This document shows, piece by piece, positions 20,399-23,342 of a DNA stretch of 64,000 nucleotides; positions within the stretch are counted from its first letter, which is position 1; the number at the start of each line of letters is the position of its first letter. Position numbers and translations under genes: made by a program. Below the pieces are notes generated by a model that saw nothing but the letters and a program-made list of their open reading frames with translations, was not told the origin of the DNA and did not search any database. This DNA comes from Frankineae bacterium MT45 (GTDB lineage Bacteria > Actinomycetota > Actinomycetes > Mycobacteriales > Jatrophihabitantaceae), in the NCBI GenBank assembly GCA_900100325.1, contig LT629697.1:186001-250000 (forward strand), written 5' to 3'.

Positions 20399-20434
20399 AT
20401 CTCACTTCCCAGCAAGAATTAACGGAGAATCACC

Positions 20435-20671
20435 ATGGCAAAGCCACCCATTCGTAAGCCTAAGAAGAAGTCGAACCCGCTGGTCACGGCGAAGATCGGC
20501 TACATCGATTACAAGGACACCACCCTGCTGCGCAAGTTCATCTCCGATCGCGGCAAGATCCGCGCTCGTCGGGTGACCGGCGTCAGCTCCCAGCAGCAGC
20601 GCGAGATCGCCAAGGCAATCAAGAACGCCCGCGAGATGGCCCTGCTGCCCTACACCTCGACCGCGCGCTAA
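20435..20671 (+). CDS. rpsR: 30S ribosomal protein S18
   Basis: A 78-residue S18: [20 protein letters not shown] followed by [29 protein letters not shown], the diagnostic C-terminal block. I see no CxxC zinc motif, so this is a Zn-independent (C-minus) form. A second, Zn-containing paralogue might exist elsewhere in the genome. ACGGAG precedes the ATG. It is transcribed with rpsF, ssb and rplI. Confidence 0.97.
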
Positions 20672-20685
20672 GGAGGACGAACAAT

Positions 20686-21132
20686 ATGAAGCTCATCCTC
20701 ACTCGCGAAGTCAGTGGTCTCGGACTCGCCGGCGACATCGTCGAGGTGGCCGACGGCTACGGCCGTAACTTCCTCGTCCCGCGCGGCGCGGCCATCCTCT
20801 GGTCCTCAGGCGCCGAGAAGCAGATCGTCCAGATCAAGCGGGCTCGTGACACCCGGGAGATCCGCGACCGCGGACACGCCCAGGAGATCAAGTCCGACCT
20901 GGAGAAGCTCTCGGTCTCGCTGGTTGCCCACGCCGGCAACGGTGGCAAGCTCTTCGGTTCGGTCACCACGGCCGACGTCGCCGCCGCGGTGAAGAAGGCT
21001 GGCGGACCGCTGCTGGACAAGAAGCGGATCAACCTGCCGGGTCACATCAAGACGGTCGGCTCGCACGTCGTCACCATCGACCTGCACCCGGACGTCGTGG
21101 CCTCGGTGCCGCTGAACGTCACCGCCGGCTAG
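20686..21132 (+). CDS. rplI: 50S ribosomal protein L9
   Basis: A 148-residue L9. The N-terminal RNA-binding domain ([33 protein letters not shown]) is joined by a long basic helix to the C-terminal domain ([20 protein letters not shown]). Length is typical. TAAGGAGG precedes the ATG at ideal spacing. Last gene of the operon, followed directly by a strong terminator. Confidence 0.98.
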
Positions 21133-21159
21133 TCTCGCTCGGCACAGAGTTCCTCGACT

Positions 21160-21200
21160 CGGCCCGGCGCTCGCTCCCAGATGGGAGTGGCGCCGGGCCG
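21160..21200 (+). terminator. Strong terminator after rplI
   Basis: CGGCCCGGCGC (21160–21170) pairs perfectly with GCGCCGGGCCG (21190–21200). A second stem CTCCC/GGGAG lies inside with loop AGAT. TTTCGCGTTT follows, so this is a good intrinsic terminator. Confidence 0.9.
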
Positions 21201-21935
21201 TTTCGCGTTTCGTAGGCAGCCCTGCCGACCGCATATGTCCTGCACCCTGCGTACGCCCGTACCCCATGCGCAGGACCTTCACCGCGTGCCCTGGGGTGGT
21301 TTACCGCGCAACCACTCCGGGTATGCCTCAGGTGCTCGACCTGAGAGCCGATTAGACAGGTACCGATTCCGGTCTGAGACTGGCGATCTGGACGAAATGC
21401 ACCGAGATCGACCAACTGAAGAGAGTCGCCCACCGCCGCCCCGCAGCAGGAGCGACTCGACATTGCGCACCAGCATGATCCCCCACAGCAGTTGAATTCG
21501 GACACCGAATCTGGACCCGATTCAACACTTGTCAAATCGACATAAAATCTGTGTTAAGGAGATTGGGCTGGTTTTCGCCTGCCTCGATCAACACGCCGAA
21601 GTATTTTTCGTCCACACCCTGAGCAGAACGCAGCCCAGCAAATCCGGGGGCTCGTGGGAAAACTTTCTTGGCGTACACAGTGTTGTCCACAACCTGTTAA
21701 CAACGTGTTTGGAAGTTGCGCACAGTCCACCCACACCGTTATCCACAGCAGCGTTTCGCAAACTCGCGGTAGGGGCATAGCGTCCTCTTCGAGACAGCGC
21801 ACCTCCGAATGGCGCTTCCCCCGCTCACGCAGCCGAGAAATTGTCAGACCCAGCGCGTAGACCAATCTGTGTCCCACAGGTTGGCTGCGGCGCCGTGTCT
21901 GAGTGCCTCAGCTACATATCGAAAGGCCCGGCTAA
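21201..21935 (+). other. A+T-richer gap between rplI and dnaB with DnaA boxes and hairpins
   Basis: No convincing gene is present. Features seen: a hairpin CTCAGGT/ACCTGAG (21327–21345), a hairpin ATTCGG/CCGAAT with loop ACA (21496–21510), a cluster of DnaA-box-like 9-mers at 21608–21747 (listed separately), and a dnaB ribosome-binding site GAAAGG at 21921–21926. A 60-base sample from 21661 is 45% G+C, well below the rest of the window. Short open frames here lack coding character. Confidence 0.65.
21683..21747 (+). promoter_or_regulatory. Pair of consensus DnaA boxes
   Basis: TTGTCCACA at 21683–21691 and TTATCCACA at 21739–21747 are both exact DnaA-box forms, 56 bases apart on the same strand. 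A one-mismatch box TCGTCCACA lies at 21608–21616, and TTGCGCACA at 21716–21724 is weaker. They could mediate DnaA control of dnaB or titrate DnaA. dnaA and dnaN are not adjacent, so a replication origin is not claimed. Confidence 0.6.
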
Positions 21936-23342
21936 GTGGTTCTCGCTGACGACACCCGCGTGTCACCGTCCTCAGCGCAGGCGCCTCGTGGGCATGCACC
22001 CACCGAGTACGACCGGACACCCCCGCAGGACATCGCAGCCGAACAGTCGGCGCTCGGCGGCATGCTACTGAGCAAGGACGCCATCGCCGACGTCATCGAG
22101 GTGCTCCGCCCCACCGACTTCTACCGCCCGGCTCACCAGGTCATCTTCGACGCCGTCCTGAACCTCTACGGACGCGGCGAGCCCGCCGACGCCGTCACCA
22201 TCTCCGCCGAGCTGACCCGCATCGGGCAGCTCGCCCGGGTCGGCGGCGCGGCCTACCTGCACACGCTCATCTCGATGGTGCCGACGGCGGCCAACGCCGG
22301 CTACTACGCCCAGATCGTGGCCGAACGCGCCACGCTGCGCCGGCTCGTCACGGCCGGCACCCGCATCGTGCAGATGGGGTACGACACGGCCTCCGGCAGC
22401 GCCGACATCGTCGGCAGCGTCGACGAGGTCGTCGACCGGGCCCAGGCCGAGGTGTACGACGTCACCGAACGGCGCACCAGCGAGGACTACGTCGTCATCG
22501 GCAGCCTGCTGGAGGCCACCCTCGATGAGGCGGAGCGCATCCAGAGCTCGGGGGGCGTCGGCCTGGGCATCCCCACCGGCTTCGCCCGCCTGGACGAGCT
22601 CACCAACGGCCTGCACCCGGGGCAGATGATCACCCTGGCCGGCCGTCCGGGTAGTGGCAAGAGCACGCTCGCCCTCGACTTCGCCCGGGCGTCAGCGATC
22701 AAGCACAAAAAGCCGACGGTCATCTTCTCCCTCGAGATGGGGAAGCTCGAGATCATGATGCGGCTCTTCTCGGCCGAGGCCACCGTGCCACTGAACAACA
22801 TGCGCTCCGGGCACATGAGCGATCAGGACTGGACGCGGATGGCCCGCCGTTCGGGTGAGATGGCCGAGGCGCCGCTCTTCATCGACGACTCGCCCAACCT
22901 CACCATGATGGAGATCCGGGCCAAGGCGCGCCGTCTGAAGCAGCGTCACGACCTGCAGATGATCGTCATCGACTATCTGCAGCTCATGACCTCGGGCAAG
23001 CGCGTCGAGTCGCGTCAGCAGGAAGTCAGCGAGTTCAGCCGGGCCATCAAATTGCTGGCCAAGGAGCTCGAGGTGCCGGTGATCGCGCTCAGCCAGCTGA
23101 ACCGTGGTCCCGAGCAGCGCACCGACAAGAAGCCGATGCTCTCTGACCTTCGTGAGTCGGGGTCCATCGAGCAGGACTCTGACCTCGTCATCCTCGTGCA
23201 CCGCGAGGACATGTACGAGAAGGAGTCGGCCCGGGCGGGCGAGGCCGACCTCATCATCGCCAAGCACCGCAACGGCCCGACGCGAACCGTGCCGGTGAGC
23301 TTTCAGGGCCATTACAGCCGTTTTATGGATATGCCGGAGTAG
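21936..23342 (+). CDS. dnaB: Replicative DNA helicase DnaB
   Basis: A 468-residue hexameric replicative helicase. The N-terminal primase-interaction domain contains DIAAEQSALGGMLLS and PTDFYRPAHQVIFDAV. The RecA-like C-terminal domain has Walker A GRPGSGKST (236–244), Walker B IVIDYLQLM and SDLRESGSIEQDSD. The frame is continuous, with no intein. The GTG start at 21936 follows GAAAGG. DnaA boxes upstream suggest replication-linked control. A strong hairpin follows downstream. Confidence 0.97.
   Translation: MVLADDTRVSPSSAQAPRGHAPTEYDRTPPQDIAAEQSALGGMLLSKDAIADVIEVLRPTDFYRPAHQVIFDAVLNLYGRGEPADAVTISAELTRIGQLARVGGAAYLHTLISMVPTAANAGYYAQIVAERATLRRLVTAGTRIVQMGYDTASGSADIVGSVDEVVDRAQAEVYDVTERRTSEDYVVIGSLLEATLDEAERIQSSGGVGLGIPTGFARLDELTNGLHPGQMITLAGRPGSGKSTLALDFARASAIKHKKPTVIFSLEMGKLEIMMRLFSAEATVPLNNMRSGHMSDQDWTRMARRSGEMAEAPLFIDDSPNLTMMEIRAKARRLKQRHDLQMIVIDYLQLMTSGKRVESRQQEVSEFSRAIKLLAKELEVPVIALSQLNRGPEQRTDKKPMLSDLRESGSIEQDSDLVILVHREDMYEKESARAGEADLIIAKHRNGPTRTVPVSFQGHYSRFMDMPE

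Follow-up and report, generated by a model that had tools for sequence, protein, structure and literature searches.

A conserved, helically phased row of DnaA boxes upstream of dnaB in Actinomycetes suggests a DnaA-regulated promoter

Results and discussion

A row of DnaA boxes in the rplI-dnaB gap

The genome of Frankineae bacterium MT45 is contained in one contig of 4,228,602 bases, of which positions 186001-250000, a stretch of 64,000 nucleotides hereafter named the window, were analysed. In the window, rpsF, ssb and rplI lie 5' of an intergenic gap and dnaB lies 3' of it (Table 1). The gap measures 803 nt, from the rplI stop at 21132 to the dnaB GTG at 21936, in line with the more than 700 bases of the original prediction. 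The DnaA boxes announced within 140 bases, two exact and at least one with one mismatch, are indeed present: the exact ones at 21683 and 21739 and the one-mismatch box at 21608. All three are on the + strand and oriented toward dnaB. The G+C content over the boxes, first given as about 45%, is 54.3% (21608-21747) for 67.9% in the window; 1.1% of the 140-bp stretches of the window have an equal or lower value. An Rfam search of 20400-22400 matched nothing up to E 1, and a generic sigma-70 promoter and terminator scan of the locus returned neither. Further upstream, a 31-base A+T-rich stretch (21521-21551) is identical in the same-genus genome despite differing surroundings. No intein is seen in the 468-residue DnaB of the window; dnaB frames of about 1070-1220 aa in G006, G037, G042 and G044, and long frames in other relatives, suggest inteins there.

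Table 1 Features of the rplI-dnaB region (window coordinates)
Feature	Position	Strand	Basis or remark
rplI (ribosomal protein L9), upstream neighbour	20686..21132	+	ORF; NCBIfam TIGR00158, 114.8 bits
Distal one-mismatch DnaA box TCGTCCACA; next box 75 bp (6.9 turns) on	21608-21616	+	Kept in G001
Weak box-like 9-mer GCGTACACA, 3 mismatches, 12 bp before exact box 21683; speculative	21671..21679	+	Sequence; letters differ in G001
Exact DnaA box TTGTCCACA	21683-21691	+	TTRTCCACA match
Weak box-like 9-mer CTGTTAACA, 3 mismatches, 11 bp past exact box 21683; speculative	21694..21702	+	Sequence
Weak DnaA box TTGCGCACA, 2 mismatches, 33 bp (~3 turns) past exact box 21683	21716..21724	+	Kept in G001
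Weak box-like 9-mer CCACCCACA, 3 mismatches, 12 bp before proximal exact box; speculative	21727..21735	+	Sequence; letters differ in G001
Exact DnaA box TTATCCACA, promoter-proximal, start 39 bp before -10	21739-21747	+	TTRTCCACA match
P1 predicted -35, TTTCGC, 18-bp spacer; TTG here in many relatives	21754..21759	+	Class comparison
P1 predicted -10, TAGCGT (class motif TAnCGT)	21778..21783	+	Class comparison; kept in G001
Predicted second promoter P2, TTGTCAGAC-N8-TAGACC	21841..21863	+	Resembles RecA-independent/PafBC damage promoter; TTGTCAGAC kept in G001
dnaB (468 aa), replicative DNA helicase; listed start GTG	21936..23342	+	TIGR00665, 529.9 bits (cut-off 385.25)

The exact consensus TTRTCCACA occurs at two sites in the window, both upstream of dnaB. 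Shuffled windows contain 0.23 exact boxes on average and reach two in 4 cases out of 100, a comparison that ignores clustering and orientation. Allowing one mismatch, five sites are found in the whole window for 7.82 expected, that is, no enrichment, and three of these five are upstream of dnaB. Genome-wide, 22 exact boxes are observed versus 6 for a reversed control pattern. They form two close pairs: that upstream of dnaB and, at 753.6 kb, a pair of divergent boxes. The paired, co-oriented exact pattern has the dnaB upstream region as its sole match in the genome. Judged from the counts at this single locus, the excess of boxes is modest; it is the comparison of sequences with relatives that lifts the array beyond chance.

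The divergent pair (753562-753609; L025:5563-5610) lies between genes recognized by eye as encoding a TetR-like regulator and a membrane protein. It was considered as a sister site and dropped: no exact box is found in the counterpart upstream stretches of 19 further genomes, among them the same-genus genome, and one-mismatch boxes are found in two of the 19 (G008 and G035).

The array is anchored to dnaB throughout the class

Absence of the boxes from close relatives had been named as grounds for abandoning the original prediction. In G001, the sole other same-genus genome in the search, the three strong boxes are unchanged. Identity to G001 reaches 92% over 21671-21747 and 88% over 21600-21790, for 67% over 21133-21500; 21791-21935 is also 88% identical, equal to the array-bearing stretch, which counts against conservation specific to the array.

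The comparison was then widened with three sets. Within the order, 61 genomes were searched and 51 upstream regions were usable, the window's own included, ten with partial or weak dnaB matches being left out. Named records provided 80 loci, the best 80 of 593 candidates; for some of these, membership of the class is an assumption based on DnaB similarity (66-82%). At the level of the phylum, 142 genomes matched, from which the 30 best-scoring loci and 40 more, mostly one per family, were taken, giving 61 loci outside the class and nine inside. The class is called Actinomycetes from its named members, which include Mycobacterium, Amycolatopsis, Streptomyces, Arthrobacter, Nocardioides and Nonomuraea. 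The 140 class loci were reduced to 123 by dropping 17 that were near-identical or had less than 150 bases upstream. The 690 bases preceding dnaB were scanned for boxes with at most one mismatch, with 20 dinucleotide shuffles and the reversed pattern as controls.

In the 123 class loci, 358 boxes are found on the + strand and 90 on the - strand, 136 of the total being exact. The shuffles average 22.75 boxes (at most 30), 0.65 of them exact, and the reversed pattern gives 43. At least one box is present in 118 loci, and 101 loci have at least two + boxes, pointing toward dnaB, for a mean of 0.65 loci (maximum 3) in the shuffles. The five loci without any box are G002 (a short contig), L078, L080, L156 and L155, a Mycobacterium; among the four loci titled Mycobacterium, Mycolicibacterium or Mycolicibacter, the other three (L103, L110 and L153) have + boxes. 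Outside the class, where the rplI-dnaB gap is often short so that the scanned 690 bases often take in coding sequence, 19 boxes on each strand are observed, without strand bias (38 versus 7.35 in shuffles); a box is present in 26 of the 61 loci and at least two + boxes in five. This distribution indicates that the array of the window belongs to a class-wide feature of Actinomycetes.

Gene order provides the anchor of the feature. In 23 class loci, 13 of them from Streptomyces, the gap between rplI and dnaB exceeds 1200 bp; these loci have 94 boxes in the 750 bp next to dnaB and none beside rplI. In addition, boxes are still present in 47 of the 49 class loci without rplI in the flank examined. 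The array is anchored to dnaB, not to rplI.

Boxes follow the helical repeat

Consecutive + boxes are separated, with few exceptions, by steps of 11-12, 20-23, 32-34, 42-45, 53-56, 63-68, 75-76 bp and onward. For the 217 + box spacings of the class, the best period is 10.8 bp (R 0.79); none of 2000 spacing sets jittered by up to 8 bp was as good, and none exceeded R 0.35. Common ancestry inflates these numbers; however, the whole-turn steps differ between genera. Taking one locus per genus-level group (71 groups, assigned manually using record titles and genome handles; 50 random draws) gives R values of at least 0.77, about 0.80, with periods of 10.7-10.8 bp. Restricting the set to spacings longer than 25 bp gives R 0.74, and weaker boxes, with two mismatches or with three and a good matrix score, fall at the same phase. 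In the window, the spacing of the two exact boxes, 21683 and 21739, deviates by 0.19 turn from the ideal period.

The commonest spacings of the class, 11 and 12 bp (60 of 217), correspond start to start to the double boxes of E. coli, where DnaA is described as favouring paired boxes with 2 or 3 bp between them (PMC11317965). The E. coli account concerns pairs, whereas Actinomycetes have longer combs with several whole-turn steps, adjoining dnaB. In the window itself, no two good boxes lie 11-12 bp apart, the best partners at this distance having three mismatches.

A predicted promoter in register with the boxes

Downstream of the last + box, many class loci have a TTG at -35 distance and a -10 element of the form TAnCGT. 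This motif is found within 130 bases past the last + box in 66 of the 117 loci that have one, for 7.3 expected from mononucleotide shuffles, a count that is not an independent test since the motif, like that of P2 below, was picked by eye in loci later counted. In the same region, five control hexamers occur in 1-11 loci and the loose TANNNT in 98. TAnCGT is absent near the array in the other 51 class loci and, outside the class, is found in 2 of 12 loci for 0.9 expected. In the window, the predicted -35 is a poor match, and the proximal exact box ends six bases before it.

The last strong box starts 39-41, 51-52, 62-63 or 72-73 bp before the -10 element in 40 of 54 loci. The box-to-(-10) register has an R of 0.79 for the 54 loci and of 0.87 for 34 representatives of genus groups, likewise assigned manually, whereas 20000 random sets never passed 0.45 and 0.55, respectively; one of 16 Streptomyces loci was used in these counts, G083 and G161 being classed as Streptomyces by their box pattern. 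As at DnaA-regulated promoters, consensus boxes conserved in relatives are located near a promoter, itself predicted by conservation.

Comparison with the dnaA-dnaN region

The genome encodes DnaA; its gene lies at about 443-444 kb, and dnaN is located at 444.8 kb. These genes are surrounded, by eye among the reading frames, by rnpA, yidC, jag, rsmG, recF and gyrB, the classical gene order. The dnaB gene of the window, at 208 kb, is about 235 kb away from this locus, so the array lies outside the origin gene order. GC skew is negative on either side of dnaB and has no sign change there. Sampled sparsely from 100 to 4100 kb, the skew is weak, mixed from about 750 kb to 1.1 Mb and then mostly positive; its sign change is nearer to 750-1100 kb than to dnaA, so that skew does not mark the dnaA locus either.

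Within the order, the dnaA-dnaN (oriC) region shares with the dnaB array the 9-mer family, the presence of several boxes and some phasing. In contrast to the one-sided dnaB array, the region preceding dnaN, compared in 31 genomes, has boxes on each strand (57 on + and 73 on -), with weaker phasing (R 0.47 at 10.8 bp, best 0.49; 58 spacings). Phasing, also found at oriC, and box numbers above shuffles, also found outside the class, are therefore not exclusive to the dnaB array. The dnaA-dnaN gap of MT45 itself has four one-mismatch boxes and no exact one. Across 27 genomes, 118 boxes are counted in about 905 bases upstream of dnaN (exact ones in 18 genomes) versus 85 in the 690 bases before dnaB; that the dnaB boxes are the stronger ones does not hold in general.

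A DnaA-regulated dnaB promoter as the favoured reading

We consider it probable that the array serves a DnaA-regulated dnaB promoter, most likely an activated one. DnaA would bind the co-oriented row of boxes between 21608 and 21747, whose spacing by nearly whole turns would align the bound molecules on one face of the DNA. The strong proximal box would adjoin the -35 of P1 in a helical register common to other genera, from where the DnaA oligomer would probably contact RNA polymerase and raise dnaB transcription. Helicase supply could thereby track active DnaA. A DnaA-controlled dnaB promoter was among the original proposals, and it is now well supported by class conservation, phasing, register with the -10 and the DnaA binding described in mycobacteria (PMC7738170).

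In M. tuberculosis, five regions were pulled down by DnaA in vitro (IDAP-seq), one of them Rv0057 upstream of dnaB (Hicks et al. 2020, PMC7738170), and the homologous five regions are reported as DnaA-bound by ChIP-seq in M. smegmatis (PMC7738170). The expression evidence comes from one point mutant of M. tuberculosis DnaA, I282T, described as binding less there and under-expressing dnaB, with 113 genes altered (PMC7738170). The mycobacterial site corresponds to the array of the window in gene and position; binding is described there, with no mention of box layout, of phasing along the helix or of register with a promoter, and outside mycobacteria that account cites only Caulobacter (PMC7738170). 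In Caulobacter crescentus, which belongs to a different phylum, dnaB is part of the DnaA regulon and has predicted upstream DnaA boxes as here (Hottes 2005, as cited in PMC8203912 and PMC7738170). Control of dnaB by DnaA, and binding of DnaA in front of this gene, are thus already known in kind, and what is new here is the class-wide geometry: in the open-licence literature on DnaA boxes at dnaB, in Streptomyces or in actinobacteria, we found no account of a class-wide helical comb or of its promoter register.

Mycobacteria are described as having no identified homologues of known helicase loaders or DnaA regulators (PMC5720831), which raises the question of how helicase supply is matched to initiation in such bacteria. 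A DnaA-regulated dnaB promoter would account for the change of dnaB expression in the mycobacterial DnaA mutant and would show how DnaA oligomers act on RNA polymerase. Its conserved geometry is directly testable.

The opposite sign of control, in which DnaA represses dnaB from the array and limits helicase when DnaA is abundant, is unlikely. DnaA is known both as an activator and as a repressor, its own promoter being autoregulated (PMC8203912), and in 2 of the 54 loci the last strong box is close to the -10 (24 and 30 bp). In the other 52, however, at least 39 bp separate its start from the -10, which leaves the -35 unobstructed. With a start about 7 bases past the -10, the proximal box of the window would be centred near -48, also clear of the -35, a position that fits an activator better than a steric repressor. 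The dnaB under-expression of the poorly binding I282T mutant points away from repression as well (PMC7738170).

We also regard it as improbable that the array functions chiefly as a DnaA reservoir or nucleotide-exchange site, comparable to titration clusters, datA or DARS, and lies upstream of dnaB by happenstance. DnaA titration clusters near oriC have been reported in Streptomyces, which speaks for such a role, as does the presence of exact boxes at dnaB with none in the dnaA-dnaN region of the same genome. However, the 27-genome comparison does not generalize this difference, and a reservoir would have no need to be helically phased relative to the dnaB -10, or to stay with dnaB where the neighbouring genes differ. 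Titration, put forward from the start as one possible function, may be an additional role of the array; as its sole role it is unlikely, the register with the promoter not being predicted by it.

An accessory replication site, also suggested initially, was rejected on gene order, strand pattern and GC skew, and is very improbable: several boxes do lie in relatively A+T-rich DNA, but a dnaA-dnaN locus with boxes exists about 235 kb off, skew keeps its sign at dnaB, and the array is one-stranded, unlike the regions upstream of dnaN. That the boxes are merely box-like sequence arisen by chance is hardly credible, since class-wide conservation, orientation and phasing refute what the modest excess of exact boxes over window shuffles, the lack of one-mismatch enrichment and the non-conserved 753.6 kb pair could have suggested.

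A second predicted promoter and a possible response to DNA damage

Between P1 and dnaB, the predicted promoter P2 resembles the RecA-independent damage promoter used by PafBC, whose consensus was reportedly described by Gamulin in 2004. Sequences of the form YTGTCRG-N10-TA are found in 47 of the 123 class loci (0.2 expected) and in one of the 61 outside; the looser YTGTCR-N11-TA is found in 52 (0.9 expected) and in seven (0.3 expected), respectively, these counts carrying the same by-eye selection as those of TAnCGT. The genome also has two adjacent WYL-domain frames next to a Pup-ligase-family gene, a pair that is likely pafBC. Mitomycin C treatment of M. tuberculosis is reported to cause over-expression of dnaB, partly dependent on PafBC (PMC8151990).

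A broader picture can be drawn, which we put forward as tentative. The array would represent an ancient, class-wide element of Actinomycetes, in which a one-sided, phased DnaA comb stands in register with the dnaB promoter and a DnaA oligomer, probably of ATP-DnaA, acts as activator, helicase synthesis reading out initiator activity. In many genera, this element would be joined to a damage-type second promoter, so that dnaB would respond to DNA damage as well as to initiation.

LexA-like boxes (TCGAAC-N4-GTTCGA with no more than one mismatch) are absent from the window and occur near the dnaB promoter in 19 of the 123 class loci and in one of the 61 outside. They lie about 80-200 bases before the DnaB anchor in G011, G029, G030, G036, G043, L081, L088 and others.
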